Part shown: in pieces, positions 1,777 through 57,461 of the stretch
Numbering within the stretch: position 1 is the stretch's first letter
Layout of the letters: the number at the start of each line of letters is the position of its first letter
Assembly (NCBI GenBank): GCA_017463185.1
Contig: JAFTPS010000010.1
Coordinates: 1-64,000, forward strand
Direction: 5' to 3'
DNA from: Alphaproteobacteria bacterium
GTDB taxonomy: Bacteria > Pseudomonadota > Alphaproteobacteria > Rs-D84
DNA length: 64,000 nt
Made by a program: the position numbers and the translations under genes
Notes under the pieces: generated by a model
What the model saw: the letters and a program-made list of their open reading frames with translations, nothing else
What the model was told of the DNA's origin: nothing
Databases searched by the model: none

Positions 1777-1996
1777 TTGTAACCGCCGTCGTTTTATGAT
1801 AAAATTCAAGCACTGGCGAAGTGCCGGTCGGTCGTAGAAAACCGCTGATAACGCTGTCCGTGGGGACAATAAAAACCTCCAACCTAAAAACTGGTTGGAG
1901 GGTGGCGATATACATAAATAAGCCCGCTATTTGCGTTATCAATAGTTTCTAACCTCCAACCACTTTCGCCGAAGGTGGTTTTTATATAGATAGGAG
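1777..1996 (+). promoter_or_regulatory. Candidate attenuator leader G, divergent copy
   Basis: Promoter TTGTAA (1777-1782), N17, TAAAAT (1800-1805). The predicted transcript opens with the hairpin GCACT-ggcga-AGTGC. Strand 1 AACCTCCAACC (1874-1884) and strand 3 AACCTCCAACC (1951-1961) are identical, and both can pair with strand 2 GGTTGGAGG (1893-1901). The last three bases of strand 3 are also the first bases of a 9-bp terminator stem, ACCACTTTC / GAAGGTGGT (1959-1979), followed by TTTTATAT. The TAGGAG ribosome binding site begins at 1991. A TATAC motif sits between strands 2 and 3, as in the other copies. The layout is that of a transcription attenuator; the signal sensed is unknown. Confidence 0.7.
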
Positions 1997-27619: not shown

Positions 27620-28057
27620 TTAATCTGAAACCATAGTTCCACACAGTTCAACGGCATAAAAACCATCGCCTTTTATTTCTGTGCCACAAAATAAACGCCA
27701 TGAACAGTTGCTATTCTCGTTATCACCCACAATTTCTTTCATCGTTTTGTAATCAATGGTGTTTACCAAACATTTTCCGGGTTTGATATACTGCTGGGGA
27801 TTTTCAATGGACAAAAACTTTGCTGTTTTTTCTTTGTTGTTATATATCTGCAAAATTTCGGGTGTTTCATCAACATAAGTTAAAAAGTCCCCGCGTTTCC
27901 CTTCGCTAATGATAATCGCGTTTTCATCCCAGTTCTGACGCTGTTGATTTATAAAAGTGACAAAGTCAGCATCGCCTTCTGGATGTGATGTAAACTCTTG
28001 ATCTTGACCACAAGCAGCCAATGTAATAATTGGCAAAATTAAAAATATTTTTTTCAT
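27620..28057 (-). CDS. Small lipoprotein, 145 aa
   Basis: Signal peptide with lipobox LAAC at Cys16, so outer- or inner-membrane lipoprotein; the residue after Cys is Gly, with no Asp retention signal at +2. The mature part is about 130 residues with four further Cys, three in the C-terminal third (CSWRLFCGTE, VELCGT). I do not recognise the family. AAGGAG precedes the ATG. Candidate attenuator A lies directly upstream, ending in a terminator just before the ribosome binding site. Confidence 0.75.
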   Translation of the reverse strand: MKKIFLILPIITLAACGQDQEFTSHPEGDADFVTFINQQRQNWDENAIIISEGKRGDFLTYVDETPEILQIYNNKEKTAKFLSIENPQQYIKPGKCLVNTIDYKTMKEIVGDNENSNCSWRLFCGTEIKGDGFYAVELCGTMVSD

Positions 28058-28075
28058 TTTATCTCCTTTTTTAAT

Positions 28076-28285
28076 AAAAAAACAAGACCACCAAAAACAG
28101 TGGTCGGGGAGTTCTCAAATCACTTTATCATTGATTCTGTGACCTTCATATATACGTCAACAGCTCACCAACCATAAGTCAGGGCTAACGCAAAAAACAC
28201 CGATAACATCAATTTAACGATGCTTTCGCACCGGATAAAGTGGGCTTGAGAAATGCCCCGAACCCAATCTCTCAGGTTCCCAGAA
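28076..28285 (-). promoter_or_regulatory. Candidate attenuator leader A
   Basis: Minus-strand leader of the lipoprotein gene. Close to its predicted 5' end is an 8-bp hairpin, GAACCTGA-gaga-TTGGGTTC (28259-28280). It is followed by GGGGC-...-AAGCCC. Strand 2 GGTTGGTGAGC (28163-28173) can pair with strand 3 CTCCCCGACC (28102-28111) with one mismatch. Strand 3 runs into the terminator GACCAC...GTGGTC (28086-28105), which has a T7 tail (28076-28085). The ribosome binding site follows. In place of the ACAACAGGG...CCCGAAAGC module of copies B, C and D it has the shorter GAC-gtatatatgaag-GTC. The promoter is not clear. Confidence 0.72.
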
Positions 28286-32163: not shown

Positions 32164-33522
32164 TCAGAATCTTTGTTGCATGGTAAATTCAATCGCCGTC
32201 TTGTTATATTCACGTTGCCATATATTTGAATCCCGTTGTGTATAGCTGAATGTAATTGTCGGCACAAAGCCCCATATATCCAATTTGTTGTTTGATAGTG
32301 ACAGAGCATAACGATGTGTAAAGTCCCGCTCGGTTATTTCCTTGAATTGATTGTTATCCACCGTCCAACGCGCATCATCATACAGCGACCAATATACTGA
32401 CGGCTCAAAATATGCGTGAAATCCCCATGGCAATTCTGCACCCAACCCCACAGATAAACTTGGTTGCCAGTATGCGTATATTGGACTGGCGGTATCTTCG
32501 CGGGTAATACCGGCACGCAGATTCATATAAACACTTGCGCTAAATGAATATGTCAGGCGCATGTTTGCTGAGTATGTCTGACCGCTCAAAAAATCCCCAT
32601 ACAGGTCATATTCGTTATTCATGGCGCGCAGATATAATCCACCCGACAATCTGCGTGTAAAGTCATAATTTGTATCCAATCGTGCGCCCACAGACCAGTT
32701 GTATCTTTCCCATCCATACCAACGCCGCGCCGCGATACCTGCCAACCAAATATCCCCACGATTCCAAACAAAGCGTGGCCCCGTAGATGCACCGATATAC
32801 AGGTCATCAAATTCGTGTTTGTCGTATATATTGCTGTAAAGATTGATGTCTGATTTCCATCGCCACTGGTCAGACAATTTGAATTCATAAGACCCGCCCA
32901 ATGTCAGATTTGTCCCGATTGCAGATTCCGGTTCATTCAAATCACGACACATCAGCCCGAACATAGTCGCCACACATTCTTGACCGCCGGCGGCATTATT
33001 TACATTGTTATCTGGCGCGGCCCCAATATTGAACCATACATTCCAATTTTTGTTCTTGCGTACGATGTACCGATAATAATTCATAAGTCCGCGTGCATTT
33101 TCCGGCAAATCTTTCCCCGCCATGGCCAAACGCAGGTGATAGTCGGCACGTGACCATTGTTCGGTGTGTATATAACACGTTGCCAGTTCAAAGCGTATAC
33201 GCGCCAGGTTCGGTTGGTCATCCAGTATCTTGCGATATATCTTGATTGCGGATTCATAATCACCACGTTTTTGGGCAATCTGTGCCAGTAAAAACCAGCG
33301 TTCTATTTCCAGTGCCACATTATTCATTTTCGGTGTCTGGGTCAGGATTTGCAACGCATGGTCATAATCCCCATGGTCAACCATTGTTCCGGCCAGTTGC
33401 ATCGCCTGTGTCGTGGTCATGGTGATTTCTTTTGGGGTGTTTTTTGTTTTGGTATCAGGTTTTGCCCAGGCGACCCCAGGCAAAACCATAACCAACGCAA
33501 AGATTAAACAATACAGACGCAT
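32164..33522 (-). CDS. Surface lipoprotein assembly modifier (Slam, DUF560 / SlipAM)
   Basis: 452 residues. Signal peptide of 20 residues ending in AWA. Residues about 35-150 are TPR-like repeats (GDYDHALQILTQ, GDYESAIKIYRKIL, ARIRFELATCYIH). A linker NYYRYIVRKNKNWNVWF and the segment GAAPDNNVNNA match the start of the Slam barrel, and the remainder is a beta barrel with many alternating aromatic strands ending in a C-terminal Phe (TMQQRF). Slam moves lipoproteins such as TbpB and HpuA across the outer membrane (type XI secretion). It lies between two lipoprotein genes, with no gap after the first and 26 bases before the second. Confidence 0.85.
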   Translation of the reverse strand: MRLYCLIFALVMVLPGVAWAKPDTKTKNTPKEITMTTTQAMQLAGTMVDHGDYDHALQILTQTPKMNNVALEIERWFLLAQIAQKRGDYESAIKIYRKILDDQPNLARIRFELATCYIHTEQWSRADYHLRLAMAGKDLPENARGLMNYYRYIVRKNKNWNVWFNIGAAPDNNVNNAAGGQECVATMFGLMCRDLNEPESAIGTNLTLGGSYEFKLSDQWRWKSDINLYSNIYDKHEFDDLYIGASTGPRFVWNRGDIWLAGIAARRWYGWERYNWSVGARLDTNYDFTRRLSGGLYLRAMNNEYDLYGDFLSGQTYSANMRLTYSFSASVYMNLRAGITREDTASPIYAYWQPSLSVGLGAELPWGFHAYFEPSVYWSLYDDARWTVDNNQFKEITERDFTHRYALSLSNNKLDIWGFVPTITFSYTQRDSNIWQREYNKTAIEFTMQQRF

Positions 33523-34461
33523 TTACTGGGCCACTTTCCCACCAAACGTAGAATGGAAATGAACAGTATTGCCAATCGCACCTTCCAGGTCATACACCCC
33601 AAGTTCAGCAGTCGCTTCACTGGCTGTGGCATCTTCACCATAAAAATTCACCGAAACAGACGCGTAACCCATATCGTCCATAGAAATAGGTTCTGACACG
33701 TTCGCCAGTGCAAATGTATTATCTATGTCTACATTATCTGGATTGGAAAATGCAATATTCTGTCCTGTAGTATCTGTGGCACTATTATATCTAACTTTGT
33801 ACCATTTGTCTGCATCCGATTTTGTAAAATCCATTACCAATGTATACGCACCTGTTGTGCCATTGAAAACCAGATTTGCATCATCTGTATTTGTTATCAT
33901 AACATCCGAACCATCCGTAATGTCGGACCCAATCACAGCCACCGCGCTTCCTGTAAAAGAATTTGTACCGTTGACGGTTTGAATCTCTTTATCTGAATTT
34001 CCTGCCAAAAGAGGCGCCCATGTTGCTTCTGTTTCATATCCTGACACCATCGTTTTTACATACATCATACCAAAGTCGGCAAATTTCAGACCGGCACGTC
34101 TGCCATACAGTTGAACCGCACCGTCTTCTAATACTCCTTTATTTTCGCCATCAGGATATTCTATACTTGAAATCTTGCCCGTTTCTGGAACAACATGATA
34201 TGTGACACCGTTTGTTTCGCCTTCTGGCGTTTCCCAAGTTTCTGCTAATGCAATAATTTGTCCTTTGTCATTTGTGCTTACAACATAGTCCCCGTCAAAG
34301 GCAACGTTTTCTACTGCGGTAGCTCCACCGATTTCGGGTATGATTGGTGTAGTGTTTCCTGTAGGTGCCCCGCCAATACCGGCACCACCACCCGAACCGC
34401 CACTGCCACCACCACATGCAGTCAATGCTAAAATAGATGTCAAAATCGCAAGTTTTTTCAT
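33523..34461 (-). CDS. Putative Slam-dependent surface lipoprotein 1
   Basis: 312 residues with lipobox LTAC at Cys16 and a long Gly/Ser linker (GGGSGGSGGGAGIGG). The mature part is all beta. The last 60 residues, with SVSVNFYGEDATASEATAEL and HFHSTFGGKVAQ, match the FYG..A.E..G...FGG end of TbpB-type barrels. First gene of the Slam operon, preceded by candidate attenuator B and a good promoter. GGGAG lies before the ATG. It is probably a surface binding protein; ligand unknown. No TonB-dependent receptor lies beside it, unlike tbp or hpu loci. Confidence 0.75.
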   Translation of the reverse strand: MKKLAILTSILALTACGGGSGGSGGGAGIGGAPTGNTTPIIPEIGGATAVENVAFDGDYVVSTNDKGQIIALAETWETPEGETNGVTYHVVPETGKISSIEYPDGENKGVLEDGAVQLYGRRAGLKFADFGMMYVKTMVSGYETEATWAPLLAGNSDKEIQTVNGTNSFTGSAVAVIGSDITDGSDVMITNTDDANLVFNGTTGAYTLVMDFTKSDADKWYKVRYNSATDTTGQNIAFSNPDNVDIDNTFALANVSEPISMDDMGYASVSVNFYGEDATASEATAELGVYDLEGAIGNTVHFHSTFGGKVAQ

Positions 34462-34478
34462 ATATAACTCCCATGTAT

Positions 34479-34749
34479 AAAATTAGACCGCCATGGGATA
34501 TCAGGCGGTCGGGGAGTTCACAAATCATTCTGTTATTGATTCTGCTGCTTTCGGGCTGCCCCTGTTGTATAGCAAACAGCTCCCCGACTTATGCAAGTCA
34601 GGGATAAATAACGACACAAAACCACAGGAATGACATCGGATAACGATGCCATTAGCATTTTGCACCGAACAGAATAGGCTTGTGACAGCCCCGAACCCAT
34701 ATCCCTATGGATTCATTCATAGTGTATCAATTAGATTAATCAATTTCAA
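34479..34749 (-). promoter_or_regulatory. Candidate attenuator leader B with promoter
   Basis: Promoter on the minus strand: TTGAAA (34744-34749), N17, TACACT (34721-34726). Predicted start about 34714, exactly at the hairpin GAATCCAT-agggat-ATGGGTTC. Next is GGGGCTGTCACAAGCC. Strand 1 CCCTGACTT (34595-34603), strand 2 AAGTCGGGGAGC (34579-34590), strand 3 CTCCCCGACC (34507-34516). Strand 2 can pair with either. Terminator GACCGCC...GGCGGTC plus TAATTTT (34479-34510) overlaps strand 3 and ends just before the GGGAG ribosome binding site. The hairpin loop AGGGATA (34700-34706) is also complementary to TATCCCT (34600-34606), a possible pseudoknot overlapping strand 1. Confidence 0.78.
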
Positions 34750-35892: not shown

Positions 35893-36180
35893 TTGATTTC
35901 CGGGGATTTTAATAGTAAAATGCATTTGAATTCACAGGGATAGTGAGTTCGGGCTGTCGTAAGCCTTACAGTAAAGCGGTACGAAAAAACGTACTGAATC
36001 CGCACGAATATAAGATGCGGTGCATTTTTGCACCTTTTCTTATGTCGCACCCCGCACTGCCTGTTTGGTCGGGGGGCCGCCTGCATATACAACAGGGTTC
36101 TTCCCGAAAGCAGTGCGGAATCATTCTTTACTGTGATTTACGAACCTCCCGACCGCCAAACCTGTGGCGGTTTAATTTTG
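35893..36180 (+). promoter_or_regulatory. Candidate attenuator leader C with promoter
   Basis: Promoter TTGATT (35893-35898), N17, TAAAAT (35916-35921). Predicted start about 35928, exactly at the hairpin GAATTCAC-agggata-GTGAGTTC (35928-35950), followed by GGGCTGTCGTAAGCC. Strand 2 GGTCGGGGGG (36067-36076) pairs without mismatch to strand 3 CCTCCCGACC (36145-36154); upstream CCCCG (36050-36054) can compete. Between them lie ATATACAACAGGG and CCCGAAAGCAG. Terminator GACCGCC...GGCGGT plus TTAATTTTG ends at 36180, right before GGGGGCG and the ATG. The only plus-strand member of the four close copies. Confidence 0.78.
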
Positions 36181-36196
36181 TTTTATGGGGGCGAAA

Positions 36197-38626
36197 ATGT
36201 CGGTAAAGTTCAAAGATTTTATATTAGCCTGGTATCGGGCGTATCACCTTTATAACATGGATGACCCGCGCAAACAGCGTTGGATGGACCTGCGGGGCAA
36301 GGCGTTTGAAATAAACGCGCGTGGTGAATATGTTTTTTTGGATGATAAACGCACCGCCACGCAAAAGGGCTGGACCAACCCGAAAACGGGATTGTTGGCC
36401 ACGGATTTGCCAGCCCCCGATTTATCGGACGAGGATTGGCGATATTTTTACGCCTTGTGTCGTACTGCAATCCGCAGTATCAATGACCGCCGGGAAGATT
36501 TGATGCGTAATGACCCAGATAAAAATCCATTACCGATTGATAAATGGTTTGGGGATAAAAATCTGAAAGCCTTTTCCGCGCAAGAGGTATCGCCCGCCAT
36601 CAAAGATAAGTTTCGTTCATTTGCCCTGTTGGTTCGGAACGAGGCGCGTCTGAAAAACAAATTGTTGGACAGTTTTTCTGCGGATTATTCATTGGAAACA
36701 TTTCTGGCGGATTTAATAGACCAGGATTATTCCCGTAATTCCCAGTTCACAATACAAAAAATTCAATCCCTTATTCGTATATTGCCCGGTATGCTGTCGC
36801 CGACATACGATTTCAAAACCGGTGAAAACAAATATCCATTAGAGGATTCAACCCGCACCCAGATTTATAAAATTTTTGCCCCTGCGGCCACGGTTGATGA
36901 CGCCGACGCATTGTATGGCGAATTTGATTCTTTGTCAGCAGCGTTGGACCCCGCGAACGAGCAAATCAACCCTGCCCAATTGCGCCAGTTCCAGGACCCC
37001 AGTGTTTATCGTGAAATATTAAAAGCACTGTATGCGGCCGATAAACCGGAAAAAAAATCGTCTTTTTATTCCCAGTTTGCGTCCGCCGGCGGTGACGAAA
37101 TTACAAACTATATGAGCCAGGTTATAACCGGCAATAATTATGAATCCGGCGCAAATGAACTGATACCAAAACTTAGCAAACAGCAAAATACCCTGGAAAA
37201 AATCAAAGAAAAAATTGATGATTTCACGGACGAGCATTTTAAACGATTGACCGACCGTGCGGCACGCCATATTTACATAGACGTCAACGCGCAACCAATT
37301 GTAAACGCTATTGTCAAAGAAAAGATTTTGCCCACGGACGGCATTTCAAAAATTCTTGAAAAAAAAGAGGATATCAAAAAACGCGTTCAGTCCAAACAGC
37401 CGTCTGCTAAAAAAGGCTGCGACTTTTTGTTTGAAGCCCTGGAATACATCAAATCATCTGGCGATATGGACGCGGCATTGGACGGTGCTTTTCGTAATGG
37501 TCGCAAGGCAGAATCTATCGCGTTTGAGGTAATAAAATACGCTATTTCAAAACACAAAGTAGCCGAGGCAAAAACTGCATTAGAGGTCTTGTCCGTAATG
37601 CGATATGATACATTTTCATCTGCGCACTGGACCGAATTTCACAAATCCCAGACTCCAATTTTTGGGGATGATAAATTATCTTTTAACAAAGATAGTGAAT
37701 CTGTATCCTTTATAACGCGTGCGCTGGATAAAGCGTTTTATTTGGGTGTAAATGGAATGTTTTGGCTGGGGGTAATGGGGCGTAATATCATCCAGCATCG
37801 TCGCGGTAAAATGGATATGAACGATATGTCGCGAATGGAAAGTGCGTTGGACAAAATAAACACAGACAGTGCGTCTTTTACCGATTTGTCGCGTGCGCAA
37901 CGGGAATATACGGAAATTCACGGGCGACTGAATACGGCCCGTGATGGCTTTGGTTATGCCATGTTGCGCCGTGCCGAGCGCGATGATTTGAACAATCGTC
38001 TGACTGAATTGAACGCGCGTCGTGCGGTGGCACGCCTGGATGCGGGGGCGGATTTGGGGGCGATTGACGATGAAATAGCCCGAATTCAGGATGAGTTGGC
38101 CCAAATTGCCGCATTGGAAACACGACATTCTGCGGATTTTGCACGCCTTGACAACCTAGACCGCGATATTACGGATTTAGAAAATCAAATAGAAGCTGAA
38201 AAATCTGTTTTGGCCACTATGGCGACTGCGCCCGACATGACCGTCAATGCCCAACGCGCAAAAATAAAAAATCTGAATTTGCGATTGGGGGCGTTGCGTG
38301 TGTCCAAGAAATCATACCAGGCTGATTGTGATAATTATTTGGAATTGGAACGCGAAGACCGTGTCGCCCAGGAATTATACCAACGCCTGCAATCGGCTGC
38401 CGACCGTGGCGCGGCACGAGCAACGGAATCCAAACCATATAATGCCCCAAAATCAGATATTCAAAATATGCAAATGCTGATGGCATTTTGGAACGCGGTC
38501 AATGGATACACCCGCGGTCTGGATGTAAATTCGTATAATATATTCAAAAATATCAAAGATGTCCGAAAATCGTCCAATTTACAGAAAACTTTTAACGATA
38601 TGTTTGACTCGGGGCGCATCGTATAA
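36197..38626 (+). CDS. Large coiled-coil protein, 809 aa
   Basis: I do not recognise this protein. No signal peptide or membrane helix is convincing, though one hydrophobic patch (AFYLGVNGMFWLGVMG) lies near residue 520. The N-terminal 500 residues are mostly helical and charged. Residues about 555-745 are strongly coiled-coil, rich in Glu, Arg, Leu and Asp (RDDLNNRLTELNARRAVARL and following). The start at 36197 has GGGGGCG 4 bases upstream; ATG 36185 is the alternative. It may be structural or secreted by an unknown route. Preceded by candidate attenuator C; no operon partner. Confidence 0.75.
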   Translation: MSVKFKDFILAWYRAYHLYNMDDPRKQRWMDLRGKAFEINARGEYVFLDDKRTATQKGWTNPKTGLLATDLPAPDLSDEDWRYFYALCRTAIRSINDRREDLMRNDPDKNPLPIDKWFGDKNLKAFSAQEVSPAIKDKFRSFALLVRNEARLKNKLLDSFSADYSLETFLADLIDQDYSRNSQFTIQKIQSLIRILPGMLSPTYDFKTGENKYPLEDSTRTQIYKIFAPAATVDDADALYGEFDSLSAALDPANEQINPAQLRQFQDPSVYREILKALYAADKPEKKSSFYSQFASAGGDEITNYMSQVITGNNYESGANELIPKLSKQQNTLEKIKEKIDDFTDEHFKRLTDRAARHIYIDVNAQPIVNAIVKEKILPTDGISKILEKKEDIKKRVQSKQPSAKKGCDFLFEALEYIKSSGDMDAALDGAFRNGRKAESIAFEVIKYAISKHKVAEAKTALEVLSVMRYDTFSSAHWTEFHKSQTPIFGDDKLSFNKDSESVSFITRALDKAFYLGVNGMFWLGVMGRNIIQHRRGKMDMNDMSRMESALDKINTDSASFTDLSRAQREYTEIHGRLNTARDGFGYAMLRRAERDDLNNRLTELNARRAVARLDAGADLGAIDDEIARIQDELAQIAALETRHSADFARLDNLDRDITDLENQIEAEKSVLATMATAPDMTVNAQRAKIKNLNLRLGALRVSKKSYQADCDNYLELEREDRVAQELYQRLQSAADRGAARATESKPYNAPKSDIQNMQMLMAFWNAVNGYTRGLDVNSYNIFKNIKDVRKSSNLQKTFNDMFDSGRIV

Positions 38627-48252: not shown

Positions 48253-49080
48253 TTAATCTTCTATCCATTGTGGACTGGAACATAATTTGTTCATTTTCAG
48301 ATGTTTTTTCAGGTCTTTTATTTTTCCATCCGTACCTTTTGAGCCGTCGTACATTGCAACCTCGCCATTGTTAAACAGTTTACAACAAAACCACCATGTC
48401 GTGGGGGATTCTGAATCAGCCTCTTGTGCGATTAAACATTTCCTGGATTCTACATCACAATCAAAATACAGGTCTTTTTCGCCGCCTAGTGCTTGGATTA
48501 ATTGATGGTTTACGCATCTTAAATATAAATTTTCTTGCAGTTCTTGCAGATTGATTTTACGTATTGTATGGGAATCTTTTTCCATTTTTTGCCATGTTCC
48601 GTTTTTGCAAATTATTTTTTCTGTTGATACTTCAATTTCATATTTTTCCCCAGTATACGCATTTTTATGTTCAACAATGTGAAAAGCACCGTCTGGCGTA
48701 CAACTTTCACCAATAACTGGTGCACAGACAGTGTATTCTGGATTTGTTTTACATAAATCTAAATATTTTTCTTGTTCCTTGATAAGGCGAACGGATAACT
48801 CTGCGCATCTGTTATATATACTTTCTTCATCCATTGACAGATTGCATTGCAATAAAGCGTACATGCAATTATATCCGAATTCGTACGCAGAATATCCAGC
48901 GGCGGGTTTCCATACATTTTCTCTGTATTTATAAAAACAGTCTTTTGCCTCTGATGGTAAAATGTCGCTTCTTAAAACATCACCCACGACCCCCGGATAC
49001 CAATAGGTAAAATCATCCATTTCAATTGCATAGCCATTGATTGTAAATAAACACAGACAAACAGATAAAAATATTTTCAT
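48253..49080 (-). CDS. Secreted Cys-rich protein, 275 aa
   Basis: Signal peptide of about 18 residues (ending GYA-IE); start at 49080, behind GGAG. The mature protein has about 14 Cys scattered as pairs, indicating disulfides, including NCMYALLQCNLS, SCTPDGAF and WWFCCKLF. No known domain. Periplasmic or surface location is likely. Its mRNA begins with candidate attenuator D, whose terminator ends just before the ribosome binding site. Convergent with truA. Confidence 0.75.
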   Translation of the reverse strand: MKIFLSVCLCLFTINGYAIEMDDFTYWYPGVVGDVLRSDILPSEAKDCFYKYRENVWKPAAGYSAYEFGYNCMYALLQCNLSMDEESIYNRCAELSVRLIKEQEKYLDLCKTNPEYTVCAPVIGESCTPDGAFHIVEHKNAYTGEKYEIEVSTEKIICKNGTWQKMEKDSHTIRKINLQELQENLYLRCVNHQLIQALGGEKDLYFDCDVESRKCLIAQEADSESPTTWWFCCKLFNNGEVAMYDGSKGTDGKIKDLKKHLKMNKLCSSPQWIED

Positions 49081-49096
49081 TTCCACTCCAATTATA

Positions 49097-49344
49097 AAAT
49101 TAAACCGCCGTGGAATTTGGCGGTCGGGGAGTTGGTAAATCATTATCGTACTGATTCTGTTGCTTTCGGGTCAGCCCTGTTGTATAGCGAACAGCCCCCC
49201 GACTGCTTTTACAGTCAGGGATAAATAACGATGCAAAACCACAGGAACATTATCGGATTTACGACGCGCCTTTATTTTGCACCGACGATAACAGGCTTAC
49301 CACAGCCCCGAATCCAATTCCCATCAGATTCAATTTGAATTCTA
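49097..49344 (-). promoter_or_regulatory. Candidate attenuator leader D
   Basis: Weak promoter on the minus strand with -10 TAGAAT (49339-49344). The predicted start is near the hairpin GAATCTGA-tgggaa-TTGGATTC (49310-49331), followed by GGGGCTGTGGTAAGCC. Strand 1 CCCTGACTG (49212-49220), strand 2 CAGTCGGGGGGC (49194-49205), strand 3 CTCCCCGACC (49122-49131). The module GCTATACAACAGGGC...CCCGAAAGC lies between strands 2 and 3. Terminator ACCGCC...GGCGGT plus TTAATTTT (49097-49124) overlaps strand 3. The stretch CCTGTGGTTTTG...TCGTTATTTATCCC is nearly identical to copy B. Confidence 0.78.
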
Positions 49345-49382
49345 TCACAAATATATGAAAAAACAAATAATATTATCAGTTG

Positions 49383-51263
49383 CTAATTCCACCGTCGCGT
49401 GTGCGATATATACTTTACGCGGTCATCGGGATAAATCACAAATCCACCGCGGATAATTTTATGTGCGCAACTGGGTGAATTGATTTCAAAGTATGACACA
49501 ATATACCGCACACTGTCGTCATCGCACAGTGATTTTATGTTTTTCATTGTCGGTACAAATTTTTGCATATATACAATATTGCCAAAACGGTAAATGCCAT
49601 TTTCGTGTTTAAGGCGTGGGTTTGATGTCTCCGTCCCTTCGCCATTTATTTGTTTCCATGTATCAAATGCAAAATAATGGTTTGATGCCCTTGATTTGTT
49701 GAAATATAATTTACCGTCCGCACCACGCGCTGCAATCAGTTCATTGTCGTATGTCGCATAGAATATCGGTCGCGGCGTATTGTACACATGTATTACGCCC
49801 AGCAAAATAAACAATACACACAACATATAATTTATGAACCGTCCCCGCACCAGAATCAGAAACATCAACCCCAACACAAAGCATATCATAGCCGTGTTTG
49901 GAATATATGGTACGGTTGCATTTGCAGCGGGCAGGGCGGCAATCCATTCTGCAATTTCAAATGTAAAATTATATACGGCGTGTGCTGCATCCACCGCTAT
50001 ATTTATTCCAACAGCACCCACAATAACCAGTGGCATAATCACAACCGAAAATATGGGCAGTAAAATTAAATTGCCAATCAGACTATAAATCGGAATCGCG
50101 CCAAAGTGTGCTGCAACAAACGGGGCGGTAAATACAGTTGCAACCACAGATGTCAAAACCATACCGTATATTATTTTCAGGATTTTATTTTTGGGCATTT
50201 TTGGTTGCACCTCGCTATATAACCATACCAGCCCAAATACCGCGGCAAAAGACAACTGAAATCCCGCCTGCATAACATAGTGTGGATTTATCAGTAATAT
50301 AATGCAAAATGCCAATGCAACATTACGCACAGATATTGCGTTGCGACCAAATATGAACGCTGTGAAAACTAATGTCGTCATCAAAAAAGCGCGCACTGTT
50401 GCGACATCTGCGCCTGACAGAAACAGATATCCAACCAGTCCCACCCACGCCACAATCATTGCTGGAATTTTGGCCGGTATGCGTCGCACAATATATGGAA
50501 TGCGTCGGAATATAAAATAAAACATTGCAAAAAGCCATCCGCCAACTAATGCCATATGAAAGCCGCTGATTGACCAAATATGTCCCACCCCAGTTGCGGT
50601 CCAGATTTTATTATCGCTTTTCGGTACTGCATTTTTATAGCCCAGAATCAAACTGTCCACCAGGAAAGATTCTGTTTGTCGGTGCAGAAAGTCGCGCATT
50701 GCATTTATGCCACCCGTGCCACTTTCCACAACCGATAATTCTGTTGCGTATCCTGTTGCGGATAAATTGTTAAAATACGCCCAACGCGCATAGTCAAATG
50801 TCCCGGGTGCATATGCACTGGCTGGTTGAAACAGGCCGACCGTTGTACGCACCGTATCGCCCACGCGTACCATTGCGGTATCATTTGCTGATACACGAAT
50901 GCGCATTTCCACTCCCTTTATTGGTGCGGTCAAATAAATTCGTACTTTGTCGGGCGTATAGTCAATTGCGTCCACCCGACCGACTATTTCCATATTGTGG
51001 ATATTGTGTTTTAAATCAGGTGTATTTTTAAAATCTGTGAATACGGCCGCATAGTAAAAACCAAACAGGAATAACAGTAATCCGCGTAATAAAATCGGCA
51101 CTTGTTTTATAAATACGGATGCTAACAATACGGCGGTAATTATTGGTGCAAAAATCAGATGTGGTTCACGTGATAGCGAAAAATACAACGCCGCACCACC
51201 CGCCATTAAAAAAGGCGTATAAATAAACAGATTGCATTGCTGATTTTTTATAAATTCCTGCAT
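49383..51263 (-). CDS. comEC: ComEC/Rec2-type DNA uptake channel
   Basis: About 626 residues with ten or more membrane helices. The N-terminus has an OB-like soluble part after two helices (residues about 70-160). The competence core is marked by WSISGFHMALVGGW and SGADVATVRAFLMTTLVF. The C-terminal metallo-beta-lactamase domain of Bacillus ComEC is missing; only about 130 soluble residues follow the last helix. The channel passes single-stranded DNA into the cell; ComF is at 18595. The ATG at 51263 is preferred over a TTG at 51269. It follows the glycan cluster by 18 bases. Confidence 0.88.
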   Translation of the reverse strand: MQEFIKNQQCNLFIYTPFLMAGGAALYFSLSREPHLIFAPIITAVLLASVFIKQVPILLRGLLLFLFGFYYAAVFTDFKNTPDLKHNIHNMEIVGRVDAIDYTPDKVRIYLTAPIKGVEMRIRVSANDTAMVRVGDTVRTTVGLFQPASAYAPGTFDYARWAYFNNLSATGYATELSVVESGTGGINAMRDFLHRQTESFLVDSLILGYKNAVPKSDNKIWTATGVGHIWSISGFHMALVGGWLFAMFYFIFRRIPYIVRRIPAKIPAMIVAWVGLVGYLFLSGADVATVRAFLMTTLVFTAFIFGRNAISVRNVALAFCIILLINPHYVMQAGFQLSFAAVFGLVWLYSEVQPKMPKNKILKIIYGMVLTSVVATVFTAPFVAAHFGAIPIYSLIGNLILLPIFSVVIMPLVIVGAVGINIAVDAAHAVYNFTFEIAEWIAALPAANATVPYIPNTAMICFVLGLMFLILVRGRFINYMLCVLFILLGVIHVYNTPRPIFYATYDNELIAARGADGKLYFNKSRASNHYFAFDTWKQINGEGTETSNPRLKHENGIYRFGNIVYMQKFVPTMKNIKSLCDDDSVRYIVSYFEINSPSCAHKIIRGGFVIYPDDRVKYISHTRRWN

Positions 51264-51281
51264 GCCCAAAAGTATAGGAAT

Positions 51282-56494: not shown

Positions 56495-56521
56495 AAAAAT
56501 CCCCAAACGGGGATTTTTTTT
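56494..56521. terminator. Bidirectional terminator
   Basis: AAAAAAATCCCC-aaac-GGGGATTTTTTTT between the convergent pyrG gene and the secreted protein gene 56520-57179. Confidence 0.85.
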
Positions 56522-57179
56522 ATTCACTATAGAAACAGCGATTACCGCCAAAATTAAAAGTCCCTTTTTCATCACTGCCAGACATAATGAAACAAGTTGT
56601 AATTTTGTCGTTGCTGCCTGGGATTGATATACCATCATCGGGACACAAGGAACAGCCCGACATGCTGGAACTACCGGTGCTACTGATGCCATAATAACCA
56701 TTGGCACAACGATAAATACGTGCAACATCCTTGCAGGTGGTTGAATTACCACATGCCCGCACGATTCGCATTTGATACCCTATGGCATAGTCCGTCCATG
56801 CAGAATTGGTGCATGTGCTGGTGGTACAGGTTGTTGCATCAGATTCTGGATTTGATGCGGTTGTTTTGACACAGGTATAGTATGGAACAGATGTGCAATT
56901 GCCACCTGTATAATTTTTTTGAACAAGACTGTATCCTGTCGCACATGTATCACATGAAATCACCATCTGTTGTTTTTCGTTTTCGTCAGTGTGGCATCTG
57001 AATTTCTTGGTGGCACAATTTTCCCCAACGTTATCAGCAACACCATTTGGTTTTGGACAGTCGCCCGCGCCATTATATGTGGCTTCATAGACCCATCCGC
57101 TGGTGCACGTATATGCCAATGCATTTGTGTCAACAAATCCAACAGCAAGCAGTGTTGAAATTAATAGTTTTTGTTTCAT
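56520..57179 (-). CDS. Secreted Cys-rich protein, 219 aa
   Basis: Start at 57179 behind AAGGAGG; the frame stays open to 57224. Signal peptide of about 22 residues (ending ALA-YT). About 19 Cys in the mature protein. N-terminal ratios such as CPKPNG...NCATKKFRC and a middle SCDTCATGYS suggest small disulfide modules. The C-terminus has CSLCPDDGISIPGSNDKIT, then CFIMSG and FNFGGNRCFYSE, as in 53929-54627. Preceded by candidate attenuator F. Surface or periplasmic protein of unknown function. Confidence 0.75.
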   Translation of the reverse strand: MKQKLLISTLLAVGFVDTNALAYTCTSGWVYEATYNGAGDCPKPNGVADNVGENCATKKFRCHTDENEKQQMVISCDTCATGYSLVQKNYTGGNCTSVPYYTCVKTTASNPESDATTCTTSTCTNSAWTDYAIGYQMRIVRACGNSTTCKDVARIYRCANGYYGISSTGSSSMSGCSLCPDDGISIPGSNDKITTCFIMSGSDEKGTFNFGGNRCFYSE

Positions 57180-57210
57180 TCTTTGACCTCCTTGATTTTT
57201 TTCGCGAATG

Positions 57211-57461
57211 AAAAAACCACCCAAAACATTCGAGTGGTCAGGAGGTTGATAGCAATCGTTAGAATTGTGTGCTTATTCAGTATATTCGCAACCCTCCTGA
57301 CCCAATGGGGACAGGAGTTTGTTTTTCGTCGTAATAATAAAAAAGACGCATCTGCTGCGTCATTGAGTATATATTCCGACGCTAACGAGCGGGCTATCAC
57401 ACCCCATCGTCAGAATTTCTGACGACATGCAGATTATACCCGATAAAATGGCGTGTTGCAA
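57211..57461 (-). promoter_or_regulatory. Candidate attenuator leader F, divergent copy, with promoter
   Basis: Promoter TTGCAA (57456-57461), N17, TATAAT (57433-57438), start about 57426, followed by the hairpin CGTCAGAA-a-TTCTGACG, then GGGGTGTGATAGCCC. A first terminator, GACGCA-gcaga-TGCGTC plus T6, lies at 57330-57361. Strand 1 is CTCCTG (57312-57317), strand 2 GGGTCAGGAGGGTT (57290-57303), strand 3 AACCTCCTGACCAC (57233-57246). Strand 3 enters the second terminator ACCACTC...GGGTGGT plus T6 (57211-57238), just before the ribosome binding site. Confidence 0.75.

Follow-up and report, generated by a model that had tools for sequence, protein, structure and literature searches.

The leaders described here look like a new version of the A-B-C antisense control of phages, turned into an attenuator and amplified for surface genes. 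Each consists of a core that resembles the RNA sRNA-Xcc1 (RF02221) and of an upstream segment (A) complementary to a segment inside that core (B), and the pairing is kept although its sequence differs from copy to copy. We analysed a window (i.e., the whole stretch of 64,000 nucleotides of an Alphaproteobacteria bacterium), the 1.04-Mb genome to which it belongs, and related genomes.

Leader copies in the window

Four leaders with a shared order of parts had been described in an earlier note on this window, and all four were found as described. Using a covariance model built from relatives, we located them at 28071-28173 (-), 34471-34589 (-), 36067-36187 (+) and 49088-49204 (-), together with two copies that had gone unnoticed, at 1893-1995 (+) and 57200-57302 (-), meaning that the window holds six leader copies. 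The exact 12-mer TATACAACAGGG occurs nine times genome-wide and not once in a reversed-letter control. The parts of the leader at 34471 and the five other copies are given below, with bit scores from our own covariance model.

34721..34749 (-): promoter-like site of the 34471 leader, TTGAAA-17-TACACT with extended -10
34693..34714 (-): 5' hairpin GAATCC..AGGGAT..GGGTTC, located where the transcript is predicted to start and present in the minimum-energy prediction
34668..34692 (-): segment A of the 34471 leader, comprising H1 GGGGCTG, box b TCACAA (34680-34685), GCCT and box a ATTCTGTT (34668-34675)
34595..34604 (-): strand 1 of the 34471 leader, TCCCTGACTT, a competitor of strand 3 for pairing with strand 2
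34580..34588 (-): strand 2, the 5' side of P1 of the sRNA-Xcc1-like core, GTCGGGGAG
34500..34588 (-): sRNA-Xcc1-like core (RF02221 match) made up of P1, P2 (whose internal loop, TATACAACA..GAAAG, is conserved), P2b and P3
34527..34534 (-): box a', AACAGAAT, within the loop of P3, complement of box a
34518..34523 (-): box b', TTGTGA, at the P3/P1 junction, complement of box b
34486..34516 (-): strand 3 (34508-34516) and the overlapping intrinsic terminator GACCGCC..GGCGGTC (34486-34510)
33523..34461 (-): lipoprotein gene downstream of the 34471 leader
32164-33522: Slam (SlipAM) gene, next after that lipoprotein gene
28234..28252 (-): segment A of the 28071 copy, TTCTCAA gcc CACTTTATC
28071..28173 (-): copy 2, core and terminator, with reduced P2 (54 bits); lipoprotein gene 27620-28057 downstream
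35957..35976 (+): segment A of the 36067 copy, TCGTAA gcctt ACAGTAAAG
36067..36187 (+): copy 3, core and terminator (95.5 bits); 809-aa gene 36197-38626 downstream
49285..49302 (-): segment A of the 49088 copy, TGGTAA gcctg TTATCGT
49088..49204 (-): copy 4, core and terminator (109.4 bits); secreted-protein gene 48253-49080 downstream
57382..57399 (-): segment A of the 57200 copy, TGATAGC ccgc TCGTTAG
57200..57302 (-): copy 5, core and terminator, short class without P2b (32.4 bits); secreted-protein gene 56520-57179 downstream
1835..1854 (+): segment A of the 1893 copy, TAGAAA accgc TGATAACGC
1893..1995 (+): copy 6, core and terminator, short class (31 bits); gene 2002-2868 downstream

A TANNNT hexamer lies 20-60 nt 5' of box b in 49/50 own-genome copies (a raw count, taken without a shuffled control). 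The fourth leader is situated between the secreted-protein gene and a ComEC/Rec2-like competence gene (49383-51269; the whole region spans 48253-51269). By eye, no conserved short open reading frame was found in the leader: in one copy (L001) the frame ends after a few codons, whereas in another (L005) it runs on without a stop. The AGGGAU loop of the 5' hairpin resembles the CsrA consensus; control by CsrA was considered and dismissed, as the genome is without CsrA (PF02599 was absent, and positive controls were detected).

The core is a distant homologue of sRNA-Xcc1

At gathering thresholds, Rfam gave no match at the leaders. With open thresholds, the core of the 34471 leader matched positions 1-87 of 87 of RF02221 (38.3 bits, E 1.1e-4) and a second window leader matched over the whole length (29.5 bits, E 0.014). 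The scores of the window copies (38.3, 29.5 and 36.1 bits) fall below the gathering score of 53, and positions 1-87 are spanned by two window copies and by all listed matches from the genus. P1, P2, P2b, P3 and the AUACAA motif of RF02221 are all present, P2b being absent from short-class copies. Matches to RF02221 were found in 24/29 genomes of the genus, in 98/190 at the order level (three of them above the curated cut-off, at 57.8, 56.4 and 55.5 bits) and in 55/398 genomes at the phylum level, and in gut and phage-type copies alike no part is conserved as strongly as the internal loop of P2. By sequence comparison, the window copies are distant homologues of RF02221, not members by the Rfam cut-off. 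The earlier note knew of no riboswitch class with these motifs, and indeed no Rfam riboswitch family matched, but the core does resemble a described RNA; as to identity with such a family, which the note had raised, the likeness is full-length, with an E of 1e-4, yet below the cut-off.

Chen reportedly named sRNA-Xcc1 an integron-encoded trans-acting sRNA in 2011. It is reported as a stable 88-nt transcript in Xanthomonas (PMC2996969) and lies upstream of symE within integron cassettes (PMC12444791). Our copies share with it the full-length core, i.e., P1, the three-way junction, the AUACAA internal loop, P2b and P3, and they share A:B pairing with its phage-type members (see below). They differ in their scores (29-38 bits against a cut-off of 53), in the terminator overlapping P1, in lacking a third segment, C, and in preceding exported-protein genes rather than symE or antirepressors; moreover, sRNA-Xcc1 in the literature that we found is a trans-acting sRNA and not part of a self-pairing leader.

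Each leader carries its own key pair

Side-by-side reading of the copies brought out a feature that the earlier note did not contain: the 5' domain holds a segment A, made up of boxes b and a, whose complement, segment B, lies in the core, with a' as the P3 loop and b' as the P3/P1 junction. Box b lies in the loop of a GGGGC..GCC hairpin and box a follows directly behind that hairpin. Because a duplex-energy search of the whole upstream region was weakly specific (own A ranked first in 13/19), we adopted a bipartite box test. A combined A:B run of at least 12 was present in 77/90 parsed genus copies compared with 105/8002 (1.3%) swapped pairs and, with wider search segments, A:B was found in 50/52 fetched own-genome copies compared with 16.6% of swapped ones.

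Among 22 gap-free copies, 98.7% of A:B cells pair, against 64.0% in shuffled and 29-48% in slid controls; shuffles of related sequences can inflate covariation, while the slid control, which retains relatedness, collapses. Changes on both sides were seen in 12/14 pairs, and the covariation score was 0.946 vs 0.224. Covariation is thus strong, a point on which the earlier note's reading is supported. The note's own example also stands, in that stem 2:3 is kept while its bases change, but the strongest covariation lies elsewhere, in the long-range pairing between 5' domain and core.

The 50 own-genome copies with a clear pair have 50 different (b,a) combinations. Since every copy has its own key pair, we infer private pairing of the phage-immunity type, not a classical riboswitch regulon. 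That one shared ligand or protein could switch on a surface regulon, as had been proposed, is thus not borne out: with 50 distinct key pairs among 50 copies, nothing shows a shared ligand. Even so, a common factor might act on the conserved internal loop of P2.

A putative terminator overlaps one of two competing stems

The terminator that had been reported to overlap strand 3 proved to be general. An intrinsic-terminator-like hairpin lies directly behind P1 in 122/128 genus copies, against 14/128 shuffled ones, and overlaps the 3' strand of P1 by a median of 3 nt; it was kept in 19/19 own-genome copies scanned and was found behind P1 in 3/30 copies from other Proteobacteria. Of the genus copies, 95% have a strand 1 capable of pairing with strand 2, and the three strands change together, with both stem 2:3 and the competing stem 1:2 retained despite base changes (e.g., GGTCGGGG/CCCCGACC, GGTCAGGAGG/CCTCCTGACC and GGTTGGAGG/CCTCCAACC). 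The strand 1:2 hairpin is also visible in several drawn structures.

The fold that combines A:B with the terminator lay at most 5 kcal/mol from the minimum in 76/77 folded leaders. Under the same energy model, which does not include P1 and A:B together as a pseudoknot, this state was lower than the P1 fold in 77/77 leaders, and forcing P1 cost about 13 kcal/mol. As P1 crosses A:B, the two are at least partly exclusive; and given that the minimum-energy fold pairs A with B in cis, action in trans may not be needed. By sequence and folding, the leaders thus have what characterises a transcription attenuator, namely a terminator before the gene that is exclusive with an alternative stem. The earlier description of a dispersed family of structured leaders with attenuator architecture is supported.

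Leaders are numerous and precede exported-protein genes

A covariance model (R1) trained on 35 genus cores plus terminator found 55 leader copies in the 1.04-Mb genome (E <= 0.01; the E-values are rough, and the training set includes some own-genome copies). The A:B test uses sequence outside R1 and is independent support for these copies. Across 40 genomes of the family, from 13 genera, R1 found 2-67 copies per genome, compared with matches in just 5/40 genomes of other Alphaproteobacteria. For the Slam gene of the window, the closest named relatives come from uncultured Alphaproteobacteria of gut and rumen. The search of related genomes by covariance model, which the earlier note had advised, thus returned many matches, and these are tied to gene starts rather than scattered without relation to them: start codons follow the core at a median of 42 nt, 101/125 of them within 28-60 nt.

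Using a strict signal-peptide heuristic, we called 77/117 distinct downstream proteins (66%) exported, compared with 40/282 background genes (14%; odds ratio 11.6), which agrees with the claim that the leaders stand mainly before surface-protein genes. A laxer heuristic gave 84/117 (72%) compared with 49/100 (49%) in the background, and was judged too lax and replaced by the stricter one. Within the genome itself, 35/52 downstream proteins were called exported. Among the remaining downstream genes are some for glycosyltransferases and for small helix-turn-helix proteins, and one for a type I methylase. Short-class cores without P2b (L064, L122, L133, L137, L141, L158 and L159; genomes G003 and G023) precede genes for small proteins of 70-92 aa that resemble helix-turn-helix regulators.

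Phage-type relatives often contain a third segment

Copies from other Proteobacteria show A:B pairing in 63/67 cases (27.8% swapped) and a third segment, C, in 37/67 (11.7% swapped), with 35 carrying both. In these phage-type copies C lies next to the Shine-Dalgarno sequence of the following gene or overlaps it; as B also matches C at the ribosome binding site, B would be an antisense element. The genes behind them include ones for Bro-N, Rha, KilA-N, P22_AR and SymE proteins, and there are matches to many anti-repressor PHROGs. In phage Aaphi23 the RNA (86.1 bits) stands immediately before ant, and reading by eye shows A, then a hairpin resembling a terminator, then B and C. Shiga-toxin phage records are also among the matches to the related RNA. 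Location in phage or satellite immunity or antirepressor loci is therefore a property of these relatives and not of the window lineage, where the leaders mostly precede exported-protein genes. No description of A-B-C pairing of sRNA-Xcc1 was found in the papers examined, a minority of those that mention the RNA.

Some sub-threshold or neighbouring RNA matches were seen at single loci. Near phage-type sRNA-Xcc1 copies in other Proteobacteria we found a sub-threshold c4-2 RNA match (L074, 2890-2958, -) and two TwoAYGGAY RNA matches (L080, 2372-2494 and 2791-2857), and a relative's contig has sub-threshold matches to Phe and Leu operon leaders (L177, 2401-2525, -).

With an upstream A complementary to B in one transcript, the leaders have one part of the arrangement of P4 CI, IsrK and C4, and the putative pairing segments of the phage-type copies have the layout of these three systems. 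The CI RNA of P4 immunity has seqA and seqC (PMC4825925, PMC10111431). Shared with it are a leader RNA B that would be processed here too, complementary segments on both sides and a putative control of premature termination; by contrast, our leaders have no detectable C, their terminator lies after B and not between A and B, and they exist as dozens of chromosomal copies, each with its own key, the comparison being one of layout. IsrK / STnc1160 of Gifsy-1 (PMC4825925) is alike in that the RNA acts on its own mRNA, read-through of a terminator yields mRNA, an antirepressor lies downstream and a complementary RNA is its neighbour, but here the target is not a phage gene; Rfam isrK gave no match in the phage-type loci scanned. 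C4 of P1 and P7 (RF01695; PMC12197685) shares with the phage-type copies loop-presented antisense boxes against the antirepressor ribosome-binding region, a target that the window copies are without, and the C4 Rfam family gave no match to the core.

Segment C was not detectable in the window lineage: matches of at least 7 nt between L3 and the ribosome-binding region occurred in 8% of own and 7% of swapped genus pairs. Phage-style action of the core as antisense to the ribosome binding site was accordingly rejected for the window genome, there being no excess over swapped controls. Traces of C do persist in single copies of the lineage. One own-genome copy (L059, G000:C15:9184-9274) has a P3 loop that matches the region of the start codon over 12 nt (AATTGAAAATGA), perhaps what is left of C, and in the same genus one copy (L035, G020:C7:80229-80314) is of the phage type, exceeds the RF02221 cut-off and has A, B and C before a Rha-like regulator. 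The latter is likely a link between the phage form and the leader form.

The leaders might also be decaying prophage immunity loci that stand before surface genes by chance. The family is phage-derived in other Proteobacteria, and the phage-type copy at G020:C7:80229 persists in the genus, both of which fit; yet A:B is kept in 50/52 copies, the terminator is kept in every own-genome copy scanned and mostly missing in phage-type copies, and a genome can have up to 67 copies. A:B and the terminator are also conserved in copies that have no phage gene close by. Decay would neither preserve nor add such features, which makes this explanation highly improbable.

Keys change in blocks on both sides

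Where homologous genes have near-identical leaders, most of the differences between these leaders fall in the four boxes and affect both sides; the proteins behind them are 84% to 97-100% identical where shown. Specifically, whole blocks of 6-9 nt change on both sides together in otherwise near-identical leaders, as in a relative (G014) where b goes from TGGAAA to TCACAA and a from ATAACAAC to AGTTCACT. Such rapid change of both sides suggests pressure for specificity. The same relative has 33 RF02221 matches, many of them before a multigene family of exported proteins that start ...SIVSRGF(F/L)(D/E)E... (e.g., L014, L025, L030, L033, L143, L161 and L169), and members of up to 97% identity have different RNA keys.

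Joint replacement of 6-9 nt blocks is also what template switching between A and B during replication would produce, and on that account homogenisation of inverted repeats, with little selection on pairing, could have shaped the keys of leaders that spread by duplication as regulatory baggage. However, pairing, terminator overlap and start-codon distance are kept over a family of 13 genera, A:B pairing is kept phylum-wide, and sequence copying does not explain the bias towards exported proteins; we consider this scenario improbable.

A two-fold switch and what it may mean

Putting these features together, we think it probable that the leaders are transcription attenuators built on a phage-type antisense-control RNA, with a switch between two folds. 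In the closed fold, the predicted default, A:B, strand 1:2 and the terminator would form and the gene would be off. In the open fold, P1, P2 and P3 would form as in sRNA-Xcc1, the terminator would be shortened and the gene would be on. The choice would fall during transcription, when newly made A would either find its own B or be captured elsewhere. Because the keys are private, the first choice for the captor of A, and the most likely one, would be the locus's own B-bearing RNA acting in trans; alternatively, the agent may be a factor that binds the conserved P2 internal loop. Private keys would also prevent cross-pairing among dozens of copies.

The second of these agents is central to a different explanation, in which the leader is riboswitch-like or protein-responsive: the P2 loop (AUACAAnA / GAAA) would bind a shared ligand or protein and stabilise P1, and A:B would be a closing stem in cis. 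The conservation of that loop above all other parts is in its favour, as is the competition of P1 with a terminator, which is a standard expression platform. On the other hand, none of the riboswitch families in Rfam matches, near-total change of boxes a and b between near-identical leaders is not something that a passive closing stem would require, and the match of phage-type B to C at the ribosome binding site marks B as antisense. We regard the riboswitch-like explanation as rather unlikely.

The attenuator model with a self-B trigger can be taken further, if only tentatively and with more doubt than belief: a domesticated phage-immunity RNA may serve as about 50 orthogonal, self-recognising switches that determine which surface proteins one bacterium displays. 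A locus's own processed B would bind in trans to A of the following transcript, which would leave the cis copy of B free for the anti-terminating P1 fold; the gene would thereby stay on, heritably and without DNA change, and new keys would arise via duplication.

For sRNA-Xcc1, filed as trans-acting, these results offer a concrete role as the antisense part of self-pairing leaders of antirepressor-type and symE genes, and they present an RNA of its type as a regulatory device used across the genome of gut or rumen bacteria, where the leaders precede about 5% of the genes of one bacterium (a rough estimate). With its dozens of mutually distinct natural RNA key pairs, a single cell offers a ready means of testing how the specificity of antisense RNAs evolves, and the leaders are a possible route to surface variation without DNA rearrangement.
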